NCBI RefSeq assembly: GCF_001425825.1
Contig: NZ_LMDM01000009.1
Location: 83,339 to 147,338 of the forward strand
Reading direction: 5' to 3'
Length of the DNA: 64,000 nt
From: Rhizobacter sp. Root1238
Lineage (GTDB): Bacteria > Pseudomonadota > Gammaproteobacteria > Burkholderiales > Burkholderiaceae_C
Positions 15,647-26,607 of the stretch are shown here, piece after piece. Both the position numbers and the translations under genes were made by a program. Under the pieces are notes generated by a model, which was not told the DNA's origin, made no database searches, and saw only the letters and a program-made list of their open reading frames with translations. Numbering within the stretch: the first letter of the stretch is position 1; each line of letters begins with the position of its first letter.

Positions 15647-16581
15647 GCTGTCTCCGTTGAAACCTTCTTGACCTGGTAGCCGATGCGCGGAAAGTGCACA
15701 TGCAGCAGGCCGCCGCGCTCGTCGACCCGCTCGATGACCACCTCGTGCGCGGTCAGGCCGACCAGCGTGCCGGCCACCGGGTCGGGCGCATAGTCGGTGG
15801 GCATCACGGTGACGGGTGCGCCCGCGTCGAAGCCGAGCCCTGCCTCCACCTTCACCGGCACGTGGGTCGCAGCGCTCGCAGCGATGTCGAGCGCTTCGGC
15901 GCTGGTCATCTTCTCGACGCTGCCGTGCCCGAAGGCCGCGACGCGCTCATACCAGCCGATCAGCTTCTGGAACGGCGCGAGGATCGTGGCCACCGGCGGT
16001 GCGCGGCGGATGTACCACAGCGACTGCGCGACCGAAAAATCCGCGATGCACGGCTGCGCGGCCATCAGGAACGGCCGGCCGTCGGCCAGCTGCGATTCGA
16101 GCCAGCCGCAGTAGCCCTGCAGCTGCACCGCGGCGTCAGCGGTGGTCAGGCGGCGCATGCCGGCGGTCATCGCGGCGCGGTCGGCGCCGAAGGCTTTCAG
16201 GAATTCGGGCGGCGCGCCTTCGAAGAGGTGGGCCACGCCGGCCGGCTGCATCGTGTACGGAATCGCGGTCCAGAACAGCGTCGAATCGGCCCATTGCGCG
16301 ACGAGGTGCTGCAGATCGCCGGCCGCATGCGGGTACAGCGGCGGCTTCGGCGCCAGCGTGTCGATCACACGGGCCATCAATGCGGTGTCGCACCAGATAT
16401 CGGAACCGATCTGCAGGAACGGCGTGCGGCGGTAGCCACCGGTCAGCGCGACGACGTCGGGCTTGGGCAGCATCACCGGCACCTTCACCGACTTCCAGGC
16501 CAGGCCCTTGAAGCCCAGGATCAATCGCACCTTCTCGGAGAACGGCGAGCCGTCGTAGTGATGCAGGATCAGGTCAGTCAT
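15643..16581 (-). CDS. glutathione S-transferase family protein
   Basis: Protein of 312 residues, longer than a standard 200-220 residue GST. The N-terminal thioredoxin-like domain starts LILHHYDGSPFSEKVRLILGFKG, in which a serine sits where GSTs often carry the catalytic Ser or Cys. An all-helical domain follows (WADSTLFWTAIP onward). An extra C-terminal segment of about 80 residues (VTVMPTDYAPDPVAGTLVGL) is not part of the GST fold. It precedes and overlaps an SDR, which suggests a joint detoxification or lipid role. Upstream of its start lies the first nested-hairpin element. Confidence 0.87.
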   Translation of the reverse strand: MTDLILHHYDGSPFSEKVRLILGFKGLAWKSVKVPVMLPKPDVVALTGGYRRTPFLQIGSDIWCDTALMARVIDTLAPKPPLYPHAAGDLQHLVAQWADSTLFWTAIPYTMQPAGVAHLFEGAPPEFLKAFGADRAAMTAGMRRLTTADAAVQLQGYCGWLESQLADGRPFLMAAQPCIADFSVAQSLWYIRRAPPVATILAPFQKLIGWYERVAAFGHGSVEKMTSAEALDIAASAATHVPVKVEAGLGFDAGAPVTVMPTDYAPDPVAGTLVGLTAHEVVIERVDERGGLLHVHFPRIGYQVKKVSTETA

Positions 16582-16611
16582 CTCGTGTCTCCGATGGAGT
16601 CTTGGTATGCG

Positions 16612-16859
16612 CGACGGCTGCGGCTGGGGGTGTGGCCTGGTGGCTCATGCCGGGGCGGTCGGCCCTGGCGGGCCGACTGCACGAAGAAGCTCGGCTTCGG
16701 GAGTGCGTCGGCAAACTCCCTCCGCTCACTTCGTTCGCTGTGGTCAAACAGTGCCGACGAGTCAGTCCACGAAGCGTGCTGCGCACGCCACTCCCGAAGC
16801 CGAGCTTCTTCGTCGCCCCAGAAATCGCCACCAGGCCACACCCCCAGCCGCACCCGTCG
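16612..16859 (+). repeat. nested covarying hairpin element, type I, copy 1
   Basis: Non-coding element in the 596-bp gap between the GST and desaturase genes. Outer stem A is 16619-16644 with 16827-16852 (26 bp perfect, extending to about 32 bp with one C-C mismatch). Stem B is 16681-16705 with 16789-16813 (25 bp perfect). Stem C is 16706-16712 with 16753-16759 (7 bp), closing a 40-nt loop at 16713-16752. Small hairpins sit in the 36-nt A-B spacer (16658-16665 with 16670-16677) and in the 29-nt segment after C (CGTGC-TGC-GCACG). The unpaired parts match the copy at 24724 almost exactly; the arms do not. Confidence 0.85.
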
Positions 16860-16898
16860 ATCGGAGCGTATTCGACGAAGTCCACTGCCGTCTCCGCG

Positions 16899-17145
16899 AA
16901 GGCGCGGGCGGGGAGTCCGTGGAGCGCCAATAGGGACGGGGCGCCGGAGCTGGCTGGTTTCATGGCCCGCGTGCGCCAGCACGCTTCGTGAACTGACTGT
17001 CGTCGACTGTTTGACCACAGCGAACGAAGTGAGCGGAGGGAGTTTCGACGACGGGCCATGAAACCAGTCGGCGGAGGGAAGTCATCGCCCCCCGGGGGCG
17101 ATGACCGCACCGGCCGGCGCGCCACGGACTCCCCGCCCGCGCCTT
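16899..17145 (-). repeat. nested covarying hairpin element, type II, copy 1
   Basis: Second element of the same gap, inverted relative to the first. Outer stem is 16899-16928 with 17116-17145 (30 bp, one mismatch). Stem B is about 16949-16968 with 17053-17072, including two G-T pairs. Stem C is 16999-17005 with 17046-17052. The 40-nt loop at 17006-17045 is the exact reverse complement of the type I loop. A 12-bp hairpin built on GTCATCGCCCC occupies the outer spacer (17081-17105). The rest of the gap (16582-16611, 16860-16898, 17146-17177) shows nothing recognisable. Confidence 0.83.
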
Positions 17146-17177
17146 TGCCACACCGATGCTCGAATGCGTGCATCAGC

Positions 17178-18278
17178 TCACGCCCTGCGCGCACGCGGCG
17201 CAAAGATGATCCGCCAGGTGCCGTGCAGGTCGCGCACCTCGGCGTTCTGCAACGCGCCCTTCTCCACCAGCAATCGATGCAGGCGCGGCAGGTGGTAGTG
17301 CGGCACGGCGGGGTACAGGTGGTGCTCCAGGTGGTAGTTCACATGGTGCGGGAACAGCAGCGCGCGGCCCATCACATTGGCGACACCGCCGCTCGTGCGG
17401 TTGCTGCGCGCCGCCGTCAGCGGCGACGACAGGTCGGTCACGCCGCCGTGTTCCATGATCGCGCGCAGCCGCAGGATCGGCTGCAGCACCGTCAGCAGCG
17501 GCAGCATCCACAGCACCGCGTACTGCAGCAGGCCGCGGCCGCCGCCGAGCGCCCAGCACAGCAGCGGCGCGGCCACCTGGAACGCCACCACGGCCCAGCG
17601 GTCGCGGCGGGCGCTGGCGCGCAGCTGCGGCGAGGTGTCGTCCAGCGGGCGGGCCGCCTTCTGCGTCACGTCGTTCAAGGCCGGCGCGCCGAAGAAGTAC
17701 GCGAAGGTCTTCCAGGCGTTCCATCCGACGAGGTCCTGGCCCAGCTTCTTCCACAGGTAGCCGACGCCACGCGGGTAACCACCATGGATCGCGGTGTCCG
17801 GATCTTCGGCGGTGTAGAGGTTGTTGTGGTGCAGCCGGTGGATCACGCGGTAGGTGCACATCGAGATGCCGCCGGCCATGCCGATCAGCCGGCCGACCGC
17901 ATCGTTGACACCGCGGTGGCTGAACAGCCGGTAATGCGCCGATTCGTGCGCCAGGATGAACAGGCCGTGCTGGTGCACGCCGATCACCAGCACGGCCAGC
18001 AGCGCAATCGCCCAGCCCCACGGCTCCCCCCAGGTGACCAGCGCCGCGGCGACGGCCAGCCCGATGCTGCCGAAGGTGGTCAGCACCGCGCCGAGCGAGC
18101 GCCAGTCGTTCAGCCGCGTCAGCGACGCGATCTCGTCGGCGTTCAGGATGCGGCGCGCGGCCGCATTGCCCGAGCCTGCCGCGCCGGCGACGCGCGCCAC
18201 CGCGGTGCGAGGCGGCTCGATCGGCCGCAGGTCTTCGCGGAACTCTTCGCCCGCGCCAGGGGTGGATGAGGTCTTCAT
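17178..18278 (-). CDS. membrane fatty acid desaturase
   Basis: Integral membrane desaturase of 366 residues with the three histidine boxes of the di-iron family: HESAH (about residue 108), HRLHH (about 146) and HLEHH (about 314). The hydrophobic stretches between them should bring the boxes together on the cytoplasmic face. Relatives act on fatty acyl chains, carotenoids or sphingoid bases using O2. ATG 18278 is preferred to the in-frame TTG at 18293 because GGAGG lies 8 bases before it. It probably follows the oxidoreductase at 18331 in one transcript. Confidence 0.9.
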   Translation of the reverse strand: MKTSSTPGAGEEFREDLRPIEPPRTAVARVAGAAGSGNAAARRILNADEIASLTRLNDWRSLGAVLTTFGSIGLAVAAALVTWGEPWGWAIALLAVLVIGVHQHGLFILAHESAHYRLFSHRGVNDAVGRLIGMAGGISMCTYRVIHRLHHNNLYTAEDPDTAIHGGYPRGVGYLWKKLGQDLVGWNAWKTFAYFFGAPALNDVTQKAARPLDDTSPQLRASARRDRWAVVAFQVAAPLLCWALGGGRGLLQYAVLWMLPLLTVLQPILRLRAIMEHGGVTDLSSPLTAARSNRTSGGVANVMGRALLFPHHVNYHLEHHLYPAVPHYHLPRLHRLLVEKGALQNAEVRDLHGTWRIIFAPRARRA

Positions 18279-18330
18279 CGCCGGGTCCTCCAATCGCTGT
18301 CGGCGTTCGACCGCCGACAGCGCGTCGGGT

Positions 18331-19350
18331 TCAGACGAGTTTCACCAGCTGCTTGCCGAAGTTGCGGCCCTTCAGCAGCCCCAGGAAGGCCTCGGGCGCC
18401 GACTCGATGCCCTGCGCCACCGTCTCGCGGTACTTCAGCTTGCCGGTGGCCACCAGCGTGCCCAGCTCCTTCAGCGCCTCGGGCCAGACGTCCATGTGCT
18501 CGCTGACGATGAAGCCTTCGAGCTTCAGCCGCGACTGCAGGATCAGCTGCGGGTGCGTCAGTGGGATCGGCTGGCCGTCGTAGCCGGAGATCATGCCGCA
18601 CAGCGCGATGCGGCCGAAGGCGTTCATGCGCGAGAGCACGGTGTCGAGCATCAGCCCGCCGACGTTCTCGAAGTAGCCGTCGACGCCGTCCGGCGTCGCG
18701 TCCTTCAGCGCGGCGTACAAGGCCTTCGGGTCGCGGTGCGCCTTGTAGTCGATGCAGGCGTCGAAGCCGAGTTCATCGACCACGTAGCGGCACTTGTCCG
18801 GACCACCGGCAATGCCGACCGCGCGGCAGCCGCGCACCTTGGCCAACTGCCCCACCGCGCCGCCGACCGCCCCGCTGGCGGCGCTGACGACGACGGTCTC
18901 GCCGGCCTTCGGCATGCAGATCTTCACCAGCCCATACCAGGCGGTGACGCCCGGCATGCCGACCGCACCGAGGTAGGCCGCCAGCGGGATGTGCGCGGTG
19001 TCGACCTTGCGCAGCGTGCCGGGCTGGCTCGCGTCGACCACCGCGTACTGCTGCCAGCCGCCCATGCCGACCACCTTGTCGCCGGCCTTGAAGCCCGGGT
19101 GGCGCGATTCGACCACTTCGCCGGCGGTGCCGCCGATCATCACCTGGTCGATCGGCTGCGGCTGCGCGTAGCTCTTGCCGGCGTTCATGCGGCCGCGCAT
19201 GTAGGGGTCGAGCGACAGGTAGTGGTGGCGCACCAGCACCTGGTTGTCGGACAGCGCCGGCAGCGGTTTCGAATCGAGGCGGAAGTTGGCGGCCGTCGCT
19301 TCGCCTTCGGGGCGCGACGCGAGAACGATCTGCTGGTTGCTGGCGGTCAT
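18331..19350 (-). CDS. NADP-dependent medium-chain reductase (CurA/leukotriene B4 dehydrogenase-like)
   Basis: Zinc-independent medium-chain dehydrogenase/reductase of 339 residues. The N-terminal region LSLDPYMRGRMN is diagnostic of the CurA/YncB and leukotriene B4 12-hydroxydehydrogenase group. The NADP-binding region reads VSAASGAVGGAVGQLAK near residue 155. Relatives reduce the double bond of enones and alkenals. It lies 26 bp from the thioesterase gene and probably shares its transcript with the SDR, thioesterase and desaturase genes. Confidence 0.92.
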   Translation of the reverse strand: MTASNQQIVLASRPEGEATAANFRLDSKPLPALSDNQVLVRHHYLSLDPYMRGRMNAGKSYAQPQPIDQVMIGGTAGEVVESRHPGFKAGDKVVGMGGWQQYAVVDASQPGTLRKVDTAHIPLAAYLGAVGMPGVTAWYGLVKICMPKAGETVVVSAASGAVGGAVGQLAKVRGCRAVGIAGGPDKCRYVVDELGFDACIDYKAHRDPKALYAALKDATPDGVDGYFENVGGLMLDTVLSRMNAFGRIALCGMISGYDGQPIPLTHPQLILQSRLKLEGFIVSEHMDVWPEALKELGTLVATGKLKYRETVAQGIESAPEAFLGLLKGRNFGKQLVKLV

Positions 19351-19375
19351 GCGGGTCTCCTGTTGGTGTGTTGGG

Positions 19376-19831
19376 TCAGTCGGAGGCGTTCGAGCGGAGG
19401 ATCTTGCGTCCCCCTGCCGGAAGCCCTTGCAGGTACTTGAAGGTGCCGCTCGCGCTCGCGAGCAGCTCGCCCTTCTCGTCGACGACCGTGCCTTCGCAGA
19501 AGGCCATCGACGCGGTCGCGTGCAGCAGCCTGCCGCGCGCGACGATGCGGCCCAGGCCGGGCCGCATGAAGCTCGTCTTCATCTCGATCGTCACGACGCC
19601 GGTGCCGCCCGGCTGCCCGCCCGGCTTGATCGAGCTGCTGCGCGCCGCATGCGCCATCGCGACGTCGAGCAGCGTCATCGTGACCCCGCCGTGTGCAACG
19701 CTCCACGAGTTGCACAGCTCGTCGCGCAGCGTCAGGCCGATCTCGGCCTCGCCGTTCTCGAACTTCAGCAGCTCGAAGCCGAGCTGGTCGACGAAGGGGA
19801 TGTGGACCGGAAATTCCATCTCAGTGGCCAT
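19376..19831 (-). CDS. PaaI-family hotdog-fold thioesterase
   Basis: Acyl-CoA thioesterase-like protein of 151 residues. The hotdog motif WSVAHGGVTMTLLDVAMAHAA, near residues 44-64, contains the HGG and downstream acidic residue used for hydrolysis in PaaI-type enzymes. The start at 19831 overlaps the SDR stop by 11 bases. A second ATG at 19819 (MEFPVHIPF) is an equally plausible start. It would release free acids from CoA esters produced by the surrounding acyl-CoA enzymes. Confidence 0.88.
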   Translation of the reverse strand: MATEMEFPVHIPFVDQLGFELLKFENGEAEIGLTLRDELCNSWSVAHGGVTMTLLDVAMAHAARSSSIKPGGQPGGTGVVTIEMKTSFMRPGLGRIVARGRLLHATASMAFCEGTVVDEKGELLASASGTFKYLQGLPAGGRKILRSNASD

Positions 19832-20612
19832 GCACCGCGCTGACGCCGCCGTCGACCGCGAGGATCTGTCCGGTGATGTGCTTGCCCGCGGCCGACGCGA
19901 ACAGCAGCGCGGCGCCCTTCAGGTCGTCGTCGTCGCCGATGCGGCCGAGCGGCGCGCCGCTGGCCAGCGCATCGGCACCGACCTTGGCAATCGTGCCGGC
20001 CGTCATCTTGCTCGGGAACATGCCCGGCGCCAACGCGTTCACCGTGATGCCGTGACGTCCCCATTCGGCAGCCAGCGTGCGCGTGAAATTGACGACCGCG
20101 CCCTTGCTGGTGCCGTACGCGATGTACTTCATCGTCGACGGCGAGCCCGACAGCCCGGCGATCGACGCGACGTTGATGATGCGGCCCGACTGGCGCGGGA
20201 TCATGCTCAGCCGCCCGATCGCCTGGCTCATCAGGAAGATGCTGCGGATGTTCAGGTTCATCACCTTGTCCCAGGCCTCCAGCGGGTACTCCTCGGCCGG
20301 GGCACCCCAGGTGGCGCCGGCGTTGTTGACGAGGATGTCGACGCGGCCGAGCCGCTGCATCGCCTCGTCGGCCACGCGCTGGATCTCGTCCGGCTGGCTT
20401 GCATCGGCCGCCACCCAGCGGGTGTCGATGCCGCGCGCCTGCAGGTGGGCCGCGGCCTCTTCCAGGTCGGCCGCCTTGCGCGAGGTCAGCAGGATCTTCG
20501 CGCCCGCCTCGCCCAGCGATTCGGCGATCTGCAGTCCGAGCCCGCGCGAGCCGCCGGTCACCAGCGCGGTCTTGCCTTCGAGGCTCAAAAGGGTCTGGAT
20601 CGGCGTGCTCAT
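19821..20612 (-). CDS. SDR-family oxidoreductase
   Basis: Short-chain dehydrogenase of 263 residues. It has TGGSRGLG (about residues 19-26), NNAG (about 97) and the active-site Ser (NVASIAG) with Tyr-x3-Lys (YGTSK). The C-terminus ITGQILAVDGGVSAV is typical of FabG/gluconate 5-dehydrogenase-like members. It lies in a minus-strand run with the thioesterase and CurA-like reductase, which suggests work on acyl or ketone intermediates. Exact substrate is not predictable. Confidence 0.9.
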   Translation of the reverse strand: MSTPIQTLLSLEGKTALVTGGSRGLGLQIAESLGEAGAKILLTSRKAADLEEAAAHLQARGIDTRWVAADASQPDEIQRVADEAMQRLGRVDILVNNAGATWGAPAEEYPLEAWDKVMNLNIRSIFLMSQAIGRLSMIPRQSGRIINVASIAGLSGSPSTMKYIAYGTSKGAVVNFTRTLAAEWGRHGITVNALAPGMFPSKMTAGTIAKVGADALASGAPLGRIGDDDDLKGAALLFASAAGKHITGQILAVDGGVSAVHGH

Positions 20613-20624
20613 GGGTTCGGTCTC

Positions 20625-22634
20625 CTAGTCGTTGTGCCTGTTGAGGGATCTGAAGAACGCGTCGCTGTTCGTTTCGCGCCCGAGGAAGTTGCGCATCAGC
20701 TGCGCCGGTGCCGCCTGCGCGCCCTGCGACAGCACCTGCTCGCGGTAGCGCATGCCGACCTCGCTGCTGAGCTTGTCGGCGGCGAACGCGGTGCGCAGGT
20801 CCTCGGCCAGCACCAGGCTCCACAGGTAGCCGTAGTAGCCCGAGGCGTAGCCGGTCGCGATGTGCGAGAAGCCGGCGGGGAACATGCTGCCCTTCACGTG
20901 GCCGAGCGGCGTCGCGCCTTCCATGCGCTGCCACGTGGCCATCGGCTCCGGCGCATCCTTCGCGTACAGCGCGAGGTCGTAGCTCGCGTACAGGTGCTGG
21001 CGCGCCACCGCGATGCCCTTCGCGAAATCGCGCGCCTTCGAGGCCCGCGCCACCAGGTCGTCCGGCGCCGGCTTGCAGGTCGGGCAGACCTCCTTGAACA
21101 GCGCCAGCACGCGGGCGTCGTAGACCCAGTCCTCCAGCATCTGCGACGGCGCCTCGACGAAATCGAGTTGCACGTTGGTGCCGCCCTGCGTCGCGTAGCG
21201 GGTGTTCGACAGCAACCCGTGCATCGCGTGTCCGAATTCGTGCAGCAGCGTCTCGAGCTCGTCGATGTTCAGCCCCTGGCGGTTGAAGTTGACGACGAGG
21301 CCGGCGGCGGGCGTGCGGTTCGCGAGCGTCGACGGGTTGCGGAAGCTCCAGACCGCCGCATGGTTGTACTTGCCCTCGCGCGGGTACAGGTCGACGAAGA
21401 AGCTCCCGAGCACCTTCTTGCTGGCCACGTCGCGCACCTCGAACGACTGCGCGTCGGGGTGCCACAGCGCCTGCTTCAGCGGCTCGAACTGCACGCCGAA
21501 CAGCTGGCCGGCGACGCGGAACACGAAGTCGAGGCTGGCCTGCGGCGGGAAGTAGGTGCGGAACTCCTCGGCGTCGAGCTGGAAGCGGTTGCGGCGTTCG
21601 CTGAAGGTGTAGTAGGTCAGGTCCCAGCGGTTCAGGGGCGTCGACTCGACCGGTTGCTTCAGGTCGCGGGCCTTCGCTTCGCGCAGGATCGCGAGATCGG
21701 CCACCTCGCGCTGCGCGACGGCGTCTTTCACGGTGCCGAGGAAGGCCTGCACCGCCGCGGCGTTGCCGGCCATGCGGCGGCGCATCGCGAAATCGGCATA
21801 CGACTCCAGGCCGAACAGCCGCGCGTACTCGCGGCGCAGCTGGCCGAGCTGCTGCAGCGTCTTCAGGTTGGCCGCGCCACCGAGGCCCTGGAACGCACGC
21901 CACATGCGCTCGCGCGTGGCGCCACGGGTCGCGTTCTCGATGATCGCGTCGTAGCTCGGGTAGTCGAGGCCGAACACGTAGCGGCCGGTCGCGTCGCGCT
22001 TGCGATCCTTCAAGGCCTCGGCCGGCACGCCGTCGAGTTCCTCGGGCGCGAATGCGACGCGCGTCTTGTCGTCGCGGATGCGGCGGTCGAACAGCTGGCC
22101 GAGCCGGGTGATCTCGTTGCTGACCTTCTTCGCGCGCGCCTGGCGGGCCGGCGTCAGCGCGACGCCGGCGTCCTCGAACGCATCGAGCGTGTCGCGCAGC
22201 AGGCGGGCGTCGATGTCGTCGGCCGGCTTCACCTGCTTCAGCAGCGCGTAGATCTTCGGGTTCTGCAGGAAGGCGTTGCGGAAGGTCTGGTAGCCGAGGT
22301 CGCAGGCATCGGCCGCGTCGCGCACCGCCTTGTCCGGGTGCACCGCGTTCAGCAGCGACAGCGGGCCGACGATGTCTTCATAACGCCGGTTCATCGCATC
22401 GAGCTCGACCAGCAGCTGGGTGCCCGGGCTCGCCGGCAGCGCCTGAAGCCGCTTCTCGTCGGCACGGGCGCCGGCGATCAGCGCCTTGCAGTCGGCATCG
22501 GCCTGCGCCGAGTTGCGGTAGTTCGGGAACACATAGGACGGCGTGGCCGGCTGGGCGGCGGCGGGGCCGGCGGCGAGCACGATGGCCAGCAAGCTGAAAC
22601 GAAAGTTCATGGGAGTGCGGATCAGGGGGTTCAC
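20625..22634 (-). CDS. M3-family zinc metallopeptidase (oligopeptidase), exported
   Basis: Thimet-oligopeptidase-like protein of 669 residues. The gluzincin motif HEFGH appears in LLHEFGHAMHGLL near residue 460. A signal peptide (NFRFSLLAIVLAAGPAAAQ) indicates a periplasmic enzyme, unlike cytoplasmic OpdA/Dcp. Two starts are possible: GTG 22634, which overlaps the upstream stop as GTGA and has AAGAG before it, or ATG 22610, which lacks a clear ribosome site. I keep the GTG because of the coupling. It would trim short peptides in the periplasm. Confidence 0.9.
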   Translation of the reverse strand: MNPLIRTPMNFRFSLLAIVLAAGPAAAQPATPSYVFPNYRNSAQADADCKALIAGARADEKRLQALPASPGTQLLVELDAMNRRYEDIVGPLSLLNAVHPDKAVRDAADACDLGYQTFRNAFLQNPKIYALLKQVKPADDIDARLLRDTLDAFEDAGVALTPARQARAKKVSNEITRLGQLFDRRIRDDKTRVAFAPEELDGVPAEALKDRKRDATGRYVFGLDYPSYDAIIENATRGATRERMWRAFQGLGGAANLKTLQQLGQLRREYARLFGLESYADFAMRRRMAGNAAAVQAFLGTVKDAVAQREVADLAILREAKARDLKQPVESTPLNRWDLTYYTFSERRNRFQLDAEEFRTYFPPQASLDFVFRVAGQLFGVQFEPLKQALWHPDAQSFEVRDVASKKVLGSFFVDLYPREGKYNHAAVWSFRNPSTLANRTPAAGLVVNFNRQGLNIDELETLLHEFGHAMHGLLSNTRYATQGGTNVQLDFVEAPSQMLEDWVYDARVLALFKEVCPTCKPAPDDLVARASKARDFAKGIAVARQHLYASYDLALYAKDAPEPMATWQRMEGATPLGHVKGSMFPAGFSHIATGYASGYYGYLWSLVLAEDLRTAFAADKLSSEVGMRYREQVLSQGAQAAPAQLMRNFLGRETNSDAFFRSLNRHND

Positions 22635-22822
22635 GTGGGGCTCTTCATGCGCGAACGCACGTAGATGAGGACGGCGCCGCAGATCGCGACCACCAGGCCG
22701 ACCGCCGCGATGCCCCAGCCCAGCGGCTCGACGTAGCGTTGCACGGCAAGCCCCAGGCCGACGCCCAGCAAGCCACCGTAGATCAGCACCCAGACGAGGG
22801 TTTCGACCGTCGAAGTCTTCAT
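22631..22822 (-). CDS. small two-span membrane protein
   Basis: A 63-residue protein with two hydrophobic segments (about residues 8-26, VWVLIYGGLLGVGLGLAV, and 34-53, GIAAVGLVVAICGAVLIYV) ending in a basic tail RSRMKSPT. The stop overlaps the GTG start of the M3 peptidase (GTGA), so the two are probably co-translated. I know no named family. The 17-bp gap upstream to the acyl-CoA dehydrogenase stop suggests one transcript. Confidence 0.75.
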   Translation of the reverse strand: MKTSTVETLVWVLIYGGLLGVGLGLAVQRYVEPLGWGIAAVGLVVAICGAVLIYVRSRMKSPT

Positions 22823-22839
22823 CGGAATCTGGCCTGGCG

Positions 22840-24684
22840 TCAGAACCAAGCGTCGTTCATGGAACGGCAAGTATCGTCGCGCGACTCGACCACGTTCAAC
22901 CAGGCGGGAACTTTGGGCAGTTCGTAGCGGAAGAAGAAGCGGGCGGCGGCGAGCTTGCCGTGCAGCAACGCATCCCCACCCTGCTCCCGCCCGGGCTGCT
23001 CCAGCCGCTGCTGCGCGCAGATCGCCACGTCCAGCCACACCCACGCCAGCACCGTGTGCCCGAAGGCCTGCAGGTAGGGCGTCGCATTCGCGAGCGCCTC
23101 TTCCGGCACGCCGGTGGCCCAGGCGGCCCTGGTGGCGTTGCCCAGCGCCTTCAGCGCGCCAGCAAGTGCATTGGCGTGCTCGGCCAGCGCCGGCAACATC
23201 AAGGCGCGCTGCAGCGTCGCATTGACCTTGGTGGCCAGCAGCATCAGGCCCTTGCCGCCGTCCATCACGACCTTGCGGCCGAGCAGGTCCAGCGCCTGGA
23301 TGCCGTGGGTGCCTTCGTGGATCATGTTCAGGCGGTTGTCGCGCCAGTACTGCTCGACCGGGTAGTCGCGGGTGTAGCCGTAGCCGCCGAGCACCTGGAT
23401 CGCGAGGCTGTTGGCCTCCAGGCACCATTCGCTGGGCCAGCTCTTCGCGATCGGCGTCAGCATCTCCAGCAGCAGCGCGGCTTCGGCCGCAGCCTCGGGC
23501 GGCGCGGTGTGCTGTTCGTCGACGAGGCGAGCGCAGTACAGCTCCAGCGCGAGCGCGCCTTCGCAATAGCTCTTCTGTGCGAGCAGCATGCGTTTCACAT
23601 CGGCGTGCTGGATGATCGGCACCTGTGGTCGGGTCGCATCCTTGCCGCCCGGCCCGATCGGCCGGCCTTGCGGACGGCCGCGCGCGTAGTCCAGGCTCGC
23701 TTCGTAGCCGGCGTAGCCGAGCATCGTCGCGCCGAGCCCGACGCCGATGCGCGCCTCGTTCATCATGTGGAACATGCAGCGCAGCCCGTCGCCGGGCTGC
23801 CCGACGAGGTAGCCGATAGCGCCAGCCGACCCGCGCACCGGAAACTTGCCCTCGCCGAAGTTCAGCAACGTGTTCGGAATGCCGCGGTAGCCGAGCTTGT
23901 GGTTGAGCCCGGCGAGCGCCACGTCATTGCGTTCGCCGGTCAGGCGCCCGTCGCCATCGACCATCTTCTTCGGCACGACGAACAGCGAGATGCCGCGCGT
24001 GCCGGGCACCAGCGCGCCGTCGGGTCCGGGGATCTTCGCGAGCACCAGGTGGACGATGTTCTCGGCCAGCTCGTGCTCGCCGTTCGAGATCCACATCTTG
24101 TTGCCGCGCAGCCGGTAGCGGGGACCGAGCGGGTCGCCCGCGGCGTCGGGACCATCGGGCGTGGCGCGGGTGACGATGTCCGACAAGCTCGACCCGGCCT
24201 GCGGCTCGCTGAGGCACATGGTGCCGAAGAAGCGCCCGGAGAACTCGTTCTTCGCGAACACTTCCTTCTGCAACGCGGTGCCATGCGCCATCAGCAGGTT
24301 GGCATTGCCGCTGGTCAGCATGCCGCCGCCGCCCATGCCGATGCCGCCTTTCGCGAAGAAGCCGTTGGCCGCCATCTCGATGACGCAGGGCAGCTGCATG
24401 CCGCCGATCTCGTAGTCTTGCGCCGCCGCGAGCATGCCGGATTCGACATAGGCCCGCGAGGCCTCGTGCGTGGCTTGCGGCTGGATCACCCGCTCGCCAT
24501 CGAAGCGCGGCTCTTCGGTGTCGGTGATGCGGTTGAACGGCGCAAACTTCTCGCGGGCGATGCGCTCGCAGGTGTCGAGCACGGCATCGAAGGTGTCGCG
24601 CGAGTGGTCGGCGAAGCGGCTGCGATTCTTCAGCGTGTCGGCCTGGAGCCAGTCGTACAGCAGGAAGTCCAGTGTTTGGCGCAT
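22840..24684 (-). CDS. acyl-CoA dehydrogenase (DmdC/FadE-like, extended C-terminus)
   Basis: Flavoprotein of 614 residues, the long form with an extra C-terminal helical domain found in DmdC and related enzymes. The FAD/substrate loop MCLSEPQAGSSLSD lies near residue 155. The RxxxxQxxG-type dimer region is followed by LQVLGGYGYTRDYPVEQYWRDNR. The probable catalytic base is Glu in MIHEGTHGIQALD near residue 440. It introduces the 2,3 double bond into acyl-CoA. The ATG at 24684 gives the expected MRQTLDFLLYDWL start; the long upstream extension runs through the hairpin elements and is spurious. Confidence 0.93.
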   Translation of the reverse strand: MRQTLDFLLYDWLQADTLKNRSRFADHSRDTFDAVLDTCERIAREKFAPFNRITDTEEPRFDGERVIQPQATHEASRAYVESGMLAAAQDYEIGGMQLPCVIEMAANGFFAKGGIGMGGGGMLTSGNANLLMAHGTALQKEVFAKNEFSGRFFGTMCLSEPQAGSSLSDIVTRATPDGPDAAGDPLGPRYRLRGNKMWISNGEHELAENIVHLVLAKIPGPDGALVPGTRGISLFVVPKKMVDGDGRLTGERNDVALAGLNHKLGYRGIPNTLLNFGEGKFPVRGSAGAIGYLVGQPGDGLRCMFHMMNEARIGVGLGATMLGYAGYEASLDYARGRPQGRPIGPGGKDATRPQVPIIQHADVKRMLLAQKSYCEGALALELYCARLVDEQHTAPPEAAAEAALLLEMLTPIAKSWPSEWCLEANSLAIQVLGGYGYTRDYPVEQYWRDNRLNMIHEGTHGIQALDLLGRKVVMDGGKGLMLLATKVNATLQRALMLPALAEHANALAGALKALGNATRAAWATGVPEEALANATPYLQAFGHTVLAWVWLDVAICAQQRLEQPGREQGGDALLHGKLAAARFFFRYELPKVPAWLNVVESRDDTCRSMNDAWF

Positions 24685-24723
24685 GGGTCTGGGTCCTTGT
24701 GCGTGGTGATATCGGCGCGGCGC

Positions 24724-24967
24724 GGCGTGGCGGGTGGCGGGAGGGGCTGGGGACTCATGCCGGGGCGGTCGGCCCTGGCGGGCCGACTCCACGAGAAGGG
24801 CAGTGCTTGCGGGTGCATCGCCAAACTCCCTCCGCTCACTTCGTTCGCTGTGGTCAAACAGTGGCGATGAGTCAGTCCACGAAGCGTGCTGCGCACGCCA
24901 CCCGCAAGCACTGCCCTTCTCGTCGCCCCAGAAATCGTCCCCAGCCCCTCCCGCCACCCGCCACGCC
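24724..24967 (+). repeat. nested covarying hairpin element, type I, copy 2
   Basis: Second type I element, in the 747-bp gap between the acyl-CoA dehydrogenase and thiolase genes. Stem A is 24724-24754 with 24937-24967 (31 bp perfect). Stem B is 24791-24815 with 24899-24923 (25 bp perfect). Stem C is 24816-24822 with 24863-24869 (7 bp). The 40-nt loop 24823-24862, the 13-nt B'-A' spacer and the 29-nt segment after C are identical to copy 1. The 36-nt A-B spacer differs at one base. Stem B differs from copy 1 at 13 of 25 positions, each change compensated. Confidence 0.85.
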
Positions 24968-25090
24968 ACGCAGAACCACCCGCTGGTGTTTGGGGGAAAA
25001 GACTGAAGTGACCGACGGGCGTTCGTGCGCTCGCGTGCTCTGTCCATCATTTGTTCGCTTGTCACCGCCCAAGTACCAGGGCGGTGGCCG

Positions 25091-25428
25091 AAGGCGCGGG
25101 TGGGGAGGCTGTGGCGCGCCAATAAGGAGGGGGCGCCGGAGCTGGCTGGCTTCGTGGCCCGCGTGCGCAGCACGCTTCGTGAACTGACTGTCGCCGACTG
25201 TTTGACCACAAATAAGGAGGGGGCGCCGGAGCTGGCTGGCTTCGTGGCCCGCGTGCGCAGCACGCTTCGTGAACTGACTGTCGCCGACTGTTTGACCACA
25301 ACGAACGAAGTGAGTGCAGGGAGTTTCGGCGACGGGCCGCGAAGCCAGCCAGCGGAGGGAAGTCATCGGCCCCCCAGGGGCCGATGACCGCCCCCGACGG
25401 CGCGCCACAGCCTCCCCACCCGCGCCTT
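25091..25428 (-). repeat. nested covarying hairpin element, type II, copy 2
   Basis: Inverted partner of the preceding element. Its outer arm ends 3 bp before the thiolase stop codon. Outer stem is 25091-25120 with 25399-25428 (30 bp perfect). Stem B is 25231-25250 with 25334-25353, one G-T pair. Stem C is 25280-25286 with 25327-25333. The loop 25287-25326 differs from the consensus at three positions. A spacer hairpin on GTCATCGGCC is at about 25362-25388. The remaining gap sequence (24685-24723 and 24968-25090) holds nothing I recognise. Confidence 0.83.
25121..25300. repeat. exact 90-bp tandem duplication inside the type II element
   Basis: Positions 25121-25210 and 25211-25300 are identical over 90 bp. 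The unit covers the 15-nt spacer, the B' arm, the 29-nt segment, the C' arm and the first 14 bases of the loop. Arm B on the other side can therefore pair with either copy. Copy 2 is the one contiguous with the full loop. Absence of any difference implies a recent event. Confidence 0.95.
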
Positions 25429-25431
25429 TGC

Positions 25432-26607
25432 TCACAGCACCTCGAACACGCCGGCAGCCCCCATCCCACCACCGATGCACATCGTGACGCAAACCCGCTT
25501 GGCACCCCGACGCTTCCCCTCGATCAACGCATGGCCGGTGAGCCGCTGGCCACTGACGCCATAGGGATGTCCAACGGCGATGGCCCCACCGTTGACGTTC
25601 AGCCGATCCATCGGAATCCCCAGCGTGTCCGCGCAGTACAGCACCTGCACCGCGAACGCCTCGTTCAGTTCCCACAGGTCGATGTCCTGCACCGTGAGCC
25701 CGAGCCGCTTCAGCACCTTCGGCACCGCGAACACCGGCCCGATGCCCATTTCGTCGGGCTCGCAGCCCGCCACCGCGAAGCCGAGGAAGCGACCCAGCGG
25801 CTTCAGCCCGCGCTGCTGCGCCAGTGCCTCGCTCATCACGACGCAGGCGCCCGCACCGTCGCTGAACTGGCTTGCGTTGCCCGCCGCGATCAGCCCGCCC
25901 GGCAGCGCCGGCTTGATGCCCGAGATGCCTTCGACCGTCGTCCCGTAGCGCAACCCTTCGTCGACGCTGATCGTCACTTCCTTGCTGCGCAGCCCCATCA
26001 CCGGATCGGCCACGCCCGCGATCACCGTCATCGGCACGATCTCATCCTTGAACTTGCCGGCATCCTGCGCCGCACAGGCCTTCTGCTGGCTCGCCGCGCC
26101 GTACGCGTCCATCCGGTCGCGGCCGATCTTGTAGCGCTTGGCCACCTGCTCGGCCGTCTGCAGCATGCTCCAGTAGATCTCCGGCTTGTGCTCGCGCAGC
26201 CAGGGGTCGGCGATCATGTGCGTGTTGGCCTCGTTCTGCACGCACGAGATGCTCTCGACGCCGCCGGCCACATACACGTCGCCCTCGCCGGCCACGATGC
26301 GCTGCGCGGCCATCGCGATCGTCTGCAGCCCGCTCGAACAGAAGCGGTTCACCGTCACGCCACTCGTCGTCACCGGCAGGCCGGCGCGCAACGCGATCTG
26401 GCGCGCGATGTTGCTGCCGGTCGCGCCTTCGGGCGTCGCGCAGCCCATGATCACGTCGTCGACCTCGGCGGCGTCGATGCCGGCGCGCTCGACCGCGGCC
26501 TTCACCGCGTGCCCGCCCAGCGTCGCGCCGTGCGTCATGTTGAAGGCGCCCTTCCAGCTCTTGGCCAGCGGCGTGCGGGCGGTGGAAACGATCACTGCAG
26601 TCGTCAT
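25432..26607 (-). CDS. acetyl-CoA acyltransferase (thiolase)
   Basis: Thiolase of 391 residues. The acyl-accepting cysteine is Cys90 in [10 protein letters not shown]. The GHPYGVSG motif near residue 350 provides the histidine, and CIGGGMGAA near 380 provides the second cysteine. It catalyses the last step of beta-oxidation or its reverse. It lies 32 bp after the FadB/FadJ-like gene, which feeds it 3-ketoacyl-CoA. The ATG at 26607 gives the normal [16 protein letters not shown] start. Confidence 0.95.

Follow-up and report, generated by a model that had tools for sequence, protein, structure and literature searches.

Integron attC sites are recognised through the fold of a single DNA strand, and their stems vary while the structure is kept. 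The p-dif modules of the XerC/D system are inverted pairs of short recombinase sites placed around small gene modules. Repetitive extragenic palindromic (REP) sequences in the form of REPINs or BIMEs are, according to the available part of PMC3733652, inverted dimers that are intergenic and reach a high copy number. Here we describe two pairs of long hairpin elements, at positions 16612–17145 and 24724–25428 of a 64,000-nucleotide stretch of Rhizobacter sp. Root1238 (contig NZ_LMDM01000009.1, forward-strand positions 83,339 to 147,338; hereafter the window), which belong to a large family of dispersed repeats. Like REPINs and BIMEs, the family consists of inverted dimers of hairpin units in many intergenic copies, but its units are of about 250 nt, branched, of two types and furnished with large conserved loops; the tags GTAG and CGTC are rare, and a RAYT gene is not required. 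The likeness to attC sites that we propose would lie in the recognition of a single-stranded fold with variable stems; the units described here differ in forming divergent pairs dispersed between genes. Inverted pairs around small genes are common to p-dif modules and to the present family, in which they are built from 250-nt hairpins. Structured RNAs of the Rfam type resemble it in their multi-helix covarying fold and conserved loops, but none of them matched at the loci searched. The intrastrand triplex repeats BoxC/PIT (available part of PMC4666352) are likewise intergenic and have the potential to form non-B DNA; they differ in size and layout, and the resemblance is limited to a polypyrimidine hairpin flanking the elements of the G001 group, as judged by eye. 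The interpretation that we prefer, tentatively and with slightly less than even confidence, is that of a dispersed, non-autonomous, giant REPIN-like element whose two ends would act as folded single-stranded DNA (ssDNA), with an enzyme acting in trans and presumed mobility.

The reading strand, used throughout, is the strand bearing the loop motif CTGTTTGACCACA. In both pairs this motif lies on the minus strand in the left element (type I) and on the plus strand in the right element (type II). Elements 1 and 3 (E1, 16612–16859; E3, 24724–24967) are accordingly read on the minus strand, and elements 2 and 4 (E2, the divergent partner of E1, 16899–17145; E4, 25091–25428) on the plus strand; this opposite orientation of the types corrects the sequence-only reading, an earlier inspection of the locus by a model. 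That reading had placed the four elements at the right coordinates, and E1, E2 and E3 fold as it described on their CTGTTTGACC strand. E4, which it took for an intact copy, carries a perfect 2 × 90-bp tandem duplication on the plus strand (25121–25300; copies 25121–25210 and 25211–25300) that is either real or an assembly artefact, and the intact units of the window measure 244–248 nt. From the outside inwards, the fold begins with stem A and an internal loop, which has CGATT facing GCATGAG in type I and AATAA in type II. A short stem then leads to a junction, where side hairpin D follows a conserved AGTC; next come stem B, another junction bearing side hairpin E, the conserved CTTCGTGNACTGACT and finally stem C, which closes a loop of about 40 nt containing a mini-hairpin. 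In E1, where the short stem is GGGGCG/CGCCCC, hairpin D (reading-strand loop GCCA) lies at 16658–16677, stem B with its enclosed part at 16681–16813 (arms 16681–16705 and 16789–16813), hairpin E (triloop C(GCA)G) at 16774–16788 and stem C at 16706–16759 (arms 16706–16713 and 16752–16759). Stem C closes the conserved 40-nt loop region (16713–16752), whose mini-hairpin at 16724–16738 has the triloop C(GAA)G and a stem with tandem G·A positions; all these parts are on the minus strand, and the coordinates of D, E, stem C and the mini-hairpin were read off the sequence by hand. The corresponding loop regions are 17006–17045 in E2 (plus strand), 100% identical in reverse complement to that of E1, and 24823–24862 in E3 (minus strand). 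Folding with DNA parameters, applied to E1 and E2, gave z = −15.1 and −12.3, with 0 of 200 dinucleotide shuffles as good. The outer stem of each of these two contains a one-by-one mismatch; the median lengths of the outer stem are 34 and 35 bp. Single-sequence folds from other genera show a similar architecture. The tandem G·A positions of the mini-hairpin in G000-type copies (G000 being this genome) are occupied by Watson–Crick pairs in the G001 group.

A 28-base loop pattern (at most three mismatches) gave 81 matches in this 6.5-Mb, 50-contig genome and 0 for the reversed control; there are 22 pairs, and of the unpaired units 14 lie within contigs and 16 at contig ends. A shorter pattern, with two mismatches allowed, gave 17 and 59 matches in the congeners SG703 (G005) and OV335 (G008) and none in eight other congeners, four of which (G001, G002, G003 and G009; two to four contigs each) hold diverged relatives in the form of short matches of 71–94% identity. 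Relatives named outside the genus are Pelomonas sp. Root1444, Ideonella paludis, an Ideonella metagenome-assembled genome (MAG) and an uncultured Burkholderiales MAG. Broader surveys detected the family in 59 of 150 genomes and 54 of 141 genera of the host's family (R2 survey), in 10 of 300 genomes of the order (R1 survey) and in 3 of 369 genomes of the class, host family included (R2), one of the three being a weak divergent pair outside the order. As limited numbers of candidates were scored per genome (13, 11 and 27), survey copy numbers are to be taken as minimum values, and weak matches are lost to the strict filters. A search of Rfam with window positions 15800–25800 returned only two sub-threshold matches, neither of them on an element, and ten other loci gave 0 matches at E ≤ 0.5; no gathering threshold of any family was reached. 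A family of this layout is likewise absent from the literature searched, the scope of which did not extend to subscription papers and preprints, including the available parts of PMC4666352, PMC12306157, PMC3733652, PMC8794818, PMC4686876, PMC5430850 and PMC6479982. The repeat family thus appears undescribed in Rfam and the literature searched, as the sequence-only reading had suspected. Its contrast with a plain mobile repeat found no support: the elements are dispersed repeats, about 80 in the genome and mainly in divergent pairs; the size of the family, the pairing rule and the gene-bearing versions lay beyond its view. Many contigs of this assembly end in or beside an element (e.g. C4, C6, C9, C12–C15, C22, C23, C29, C32, C36, C47 and C50). 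Partial duplications akin to that of E4, a number of them containing N at the point of junction, occur elsewhere in the assembly and may have arisen as artefacts of it. Contigs ending in elements, together with copies that contain N or a partial duplication, imply that individual copies may be mis-assembled.

Covariation was analysed in 41 type I copies (alignment A1, two Ideonella copies included) and 42 type II copies (A2), which represent 83 of the 165 loop matches of loci L039–L149, namely those that are of full length, free of N, single-looped and non-identical. In type I, 96.9% of pair cells are paired, against at most 44.9% when the structure is slid along the alignment; 54 of 87 pairs are double-changed, amounting to 366 cells compared to 87.6 after shuffling. 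The values for type II are 99.0% (slid, at most 46.8%), 40 of 90 pairs, and 225 cells against 53.4. A cross-genus core alignment (A3, 31 sequences) is 93.3% paired, with 18 of 25 pairs double-changed (188 cells, 56.8 shuffled) and covariation at all 8 pairs of stem C; it was assembled from 35 greedily chosen cores by removing five (four with tandem duplications and the type I row L083) and adding L135. Further genera (A4, 58 distinct rows fitted to the model) give 94.4%, 23 of 25 pairs and 326 cells against 87.1. Because the structures of A1 and A2 stem from the very alignments on which they were tested, and because shuffling takes no account of relatedness, these figures are not probabilities. 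The covariation is real and lies far above both controls, shuffled and slid. The unpaired loops and junctions are the best conserved parts across genera. Selection on stem pairing and on loop sequence, which had been proposed from the copies in the window, is supported. The perfect complementarity claimed for the stems was too strong a description, given the mismatches in E1 and E2 and the bulges in stem A, and stem A, held to be unrelated between copies, can be recognised over the 41 type I copies as a G-rich/C-rich stem of the family in which double changes are numerous.

Covariation could also arise without selection, if the elements were non-functional palindromes in which one arm is copied anew from its partner by hairpin-primed template switching during DNA replication, with stable DNA loops retained as primers of the switch. 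Hairpin D of type I speaks for this: it ranges from 4 to 11 counted pairs, both arms varying together, and is Watson–Crick throughout from both ends in 48 of 51 copies, with one other pair in the remaining three (these length statistics were restricted to type I because the pattern for D mis-registered many type II copies). According to the available part of PMC8794818, template switching is able to create and maintain hairpins. GNA loops confined to one strand would make such a process strand-specific, and partial deletion is frequent at the sites compared. Conversely, the mechanism does not explain why the unpaired loops and junctions vary least from genus to genus, and in single-sequence folds stem A has an asymmetric bulge in 13 of the 41 copies of type I and 17 of the 42 of type II. 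Orthologous copies in two species (12 element comparisons out of 33 locus pairs tried) show 69 double-changed pairs that remained paired and 2 that were broken, though exchange between copies can contribute to such double changes and could give the same result; single changes in these comparisons led to G·T in 38 cases, to A·C in 11, from G·T to Watson–Crick in 21 and to other outcomes in 42, and 102 of 773 unpaired positions had changed. Moreover, the divergent pairing described below requires a unit of function or movement. Palindromes without function are therefore improbable in our judgement. Arm recopying, which the sequence-only reading had offered as an alternative to selection, keeps some support because the two arms of type I hairpin D change length together, although stem A is bulged in many copies.

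The two strands of the stems are not equivalent. On the reading strand, G·T outnumbers A·C by 66:10 in type I (A1), 51:13 in type II (A2), 22:3 in A4 and 31:3 in a further alignment, A5 (counts omit columns with more than 35% G·T or unpaired cells, and the sets overlap). An excess of G·T over A·C on one strand indicates that this strand acts single-stranded. Within one locus the two types occupy opposite strands and each shows the excess on its own, so that a strand bias of the neighbourhood, replication or transcription from a neighbouring gene is not the cause. The nature of the strand is suggested by the loops. The mini-hairpin ends in a C(GNA)G loop in 39 of 41 A1 copies (the other two being G(GAA)C), in 42 of 42 in A2 and in 66 of 84 in A5, for which any position inside the hairpin end was accepted. 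Hairpin E carries C(GNA)G or C(GNYA)G in 37 of 41, 41 of 42 and 60 of 84 copies, and C(GNRA)G in 0 of 41, 0 of 42 and 6 of 84, the remainder having other loops; in hairpin D of type I the loop is often GCCA. The available part of PMC4686876 attributes extraordinarily stable DNA mini-hairpins to GNA and GNNA loops, GCGAAGC melting near 78 °C, and Table 2 in the available part of PMC8794818 lists 6.1% loops of 3 nt and 17.9% GNRA among ribosomal RNA hairpins. Since the mini-hairpin and hairpin E loops are mostly C(GNA)G or C(GNYA)G and seldom GNRA, folded ssDNA is favoured over RNA, short of proof.

RNA function is nevertheless the main rival. The units would be transcribed on the CTGTTTGACC strand into a branched RNA acting at gene 3′ ends in mRNA stability, termination or protein binding, and a divergent pair would supply a sense copy for either direction of transcription. 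Consistent with such a role are the one-strand covariation with G·U-type intermediates, the conserved internal loops and the tandem G·A positions. By crude gene calls, many copies begin no more than tens of bases from the called end of a gene, and 33 element clusters lie between convergent (11), tandem (18) and divergent genes (4), counts to be read without a background rate; the small number between divergent genes speaks for the preferred reading as well. The loop types and their contrast with ribosomal RNA argue against it, as does the lack of an Rfam match in the window section and at the ten other loci; we regard a structured RNA family as somewhat unlikely. The sequence-only reading had left the choice at a structured RNA or an ssDNA substrate, and this pair of options holds, with the loop chemistry adding weight to the latter.

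The units are arranged by a rule of divergent pairing. Across 12 genomes, neighbours 150–600 bp apart are divergent (−,+) in 62 of 64 cases, (−,−) in two and convergent (+,−) in none; at 600–3000 bp, 6 of 7 are divergent and again none is (+,−). Strands in G005 and G000 were flipped for these counts, as the pattern used there reads on the opposite strand. Another seven neighbours, less than 150 bp apart and all on the same strand (five −−, two ++), are partial tandem duplications and stand outside the 64, and at 3–20 kb nine (+,−), one (−,−) and one (−,+) were counted. Additional long divergent pairs occur at L133, L135 and L138. The genes found in the spacers of about 0.6–2.3 kb that were read are unrelated to one another: one codes for a LysR regulator, one gives a RelE-like match below the Pfam cut-off and is accompanied by a helix-turn-helix (HTH) protein, one codes for another HTH protein, and others for proteins without a Pfam match. 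Of one set of 20 loci, five (L352–L356) were analysed. A transposase inside the spacer was considered and rejected: in L133 the long spacer contains, by eye, an RHS-like end together with further fragments, and different genes occupy the remaining long spacers that were read. The idea that spacers are palindromic in general was likewise discarded, with a perfect inverted repeat of at least 15 nt in only 11 of 38 pairs (L039–L149). A second spacer motif (GGTGACAAGCGAACAAGTG...CCCGGGTT and its complement), itself REP-like, was seen between II/II pairs at L042, L044, L063, L114, L119 and L139.

Under the REPIN-like reading preferred here, each end would be a branched hairpin of about 250 nt acting as folded ssDNA on its own CTGTTTGACC strand, and two such ends would point away from each other, separated by a spacer that is short as a rule, palindromic in some cases and gene-bearing in a few. 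Once the strand becomes accessible, e.g. as template for lagging-strand synthesis, an enzyme encoded elsewhere would recognise the fold along with the conserved loops and junctions and would then copy the unit or move it. The stems would be free to vary as long as they pair and the loops would not, and recopying of arms by template switching may help the stems to stay paired. A bolder version sees in the divergent pair the two termini of a mobile element of cassette type that travels in the form of folded ssDNA, is recognised by the three-dimensional shape of its ends and not by their sequence, is able to carry arbitrary small genes, perhaps toxin–antitoxin pairs, and is driven across Burkholderiales by an enzyme class not yet connected to it; this we consider unlikely.

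One candidate for an enzyme acting in trans is a RAYT (Y1) transposase, and the family might be a classical REP/BIME family mobilised by it, merely of larger size. The REP-like features are the inverted dimers, the intergenic position and the high copy number (PMC3733652, available part), and a Y1_Tnp match was obtained in 14 of the 20 genomes searched. However, five element-bearing genomes (G287, G293, G202, G125 and G002) had no match at E ≤ 0.001. At the stem foot, GTAG occurs in 2 of 41 and CGTC in 2 of 41 type I copies, against 0 of 42 and 2 matches in 42 for type II, and the unit of about 250 nt compares with 20–40 nt for REP. The weak Y1_Tnp-like gene of this genome (L150, 1426–2091) lies directly 3′ of a gene for an HD-domain phosphohydrolase, a group of proteins that we take to be dGTPases; within the locus read there is no loop match near it, and no unit flanks the gene. 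The same gene order was seen by eye in the distant G240 (L317), which suggests vertical inheritance and not mobility. A RAYT/Y1 transposase was rejected as the partner, given the element-bearing genomes without a match at that threshold and the lack of units flanking the gene in this genome. The family agrees with classical REPs in its inverted dimers and departs from them in unit size, stem-foot tag and RAYT, and membership is very unlikely. A short Y1_Tnp-like fragment close to an element in G300 (L327, near 898–999) is probably incidental. Derivation as a miniature inverted-repeat transposable element (MITE) from a DDE-type insertion sequence would be compatible with size and intergenic spread; the outer stem, however, varies between copies, and no clean target duplication was seen at ten sites compared, most of them remnants, which leaves this origin highly improbable too.

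A number of observations weigh against the preferred reading of a REPIN-like element acting as folded ssDNA. The G·T counts are not independent between related copies, RNA could possibly also have GNA triloops and tolerate G·T, GNRA loops are stable in DNA as well (PMC8794818, available part), and hairpin D of type II is GNRA in 9 of 42 copies (GAGA 5, GCGA 2, GCAA 2). The assembly comprises 50 contigs, many of which end in these elements. No transposase or recombinase was linked to the family, Y1_Tnp being the only one searched for. Gene-bearing pairs are few, and chance neighbours may be among them. Many sites are common to this genome and OV335 or SG703, so the copies are old. In OV335, the 597 bp corresponding to 16585–17181 are absent, the flanks abutting with one base between; in SG703 the matching site (L152:1–350 and the end of L162) holds a different tandem hairpin repeat array, GTTCGGGCTGAGCTTGTCGAAG ... 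CTTCGACAAGCTCAGGGCGAAC. The comparison with SG703 covered nine other sites: partial remnants were found at six (L047, L054, L056/L072, L062, L063 and L082) and a unit at one (L048/L055), while two are nearly clean (L046 and L071). With mostly partial remnants at these sites, it is loss and not gain that is observed: neither a copy gained at a previously empty site, at the sites compared with OV335 and SG703, nor a clean target-site duplication, at the ten sites noted above, was found. A unit like the GTTCGGGCTGAGCTTGTCGAAG ... CTTCGACAAGCTCAGGGCGAAC repeat was also seen beside elements in G001 (L165).

As for the surroundings in the window, pair 1 is flanked by genes for a glutathione S-transferase and a fatty acid desaturase, and pair 2 by genes for an acyl-CoA dehydrogenase and a thiolase; the four genes are all on the minus strand. 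The spacer of pair 1 is short (16860–16898), and that of pair 2 (24968–25090) resembles a hybrid of two spacer types from other copies. The polypyrimidine hairpin of the G001 group (TTTTCTTTGGTTACTTTCTTTTGGC...GCAAAAGAAAG) lies 3′ of the element in L165, L174, L182 and other loci of that group, where an intrastrand triplex is possible.

The family provides a natural, covariation-resolved data set on an apparently selected ssDNA fold. Such folds are hard to tell from RNA, and the loop chemistry observed here makes the question testable. The elements may also account for where assemblies of these genomes break. The family is present in 54 of the 141 genera surveyed in the host's family, with up to dozens of copies per genome, and if the pairs do move genes, they would constitute a further route for small gene cassettes.

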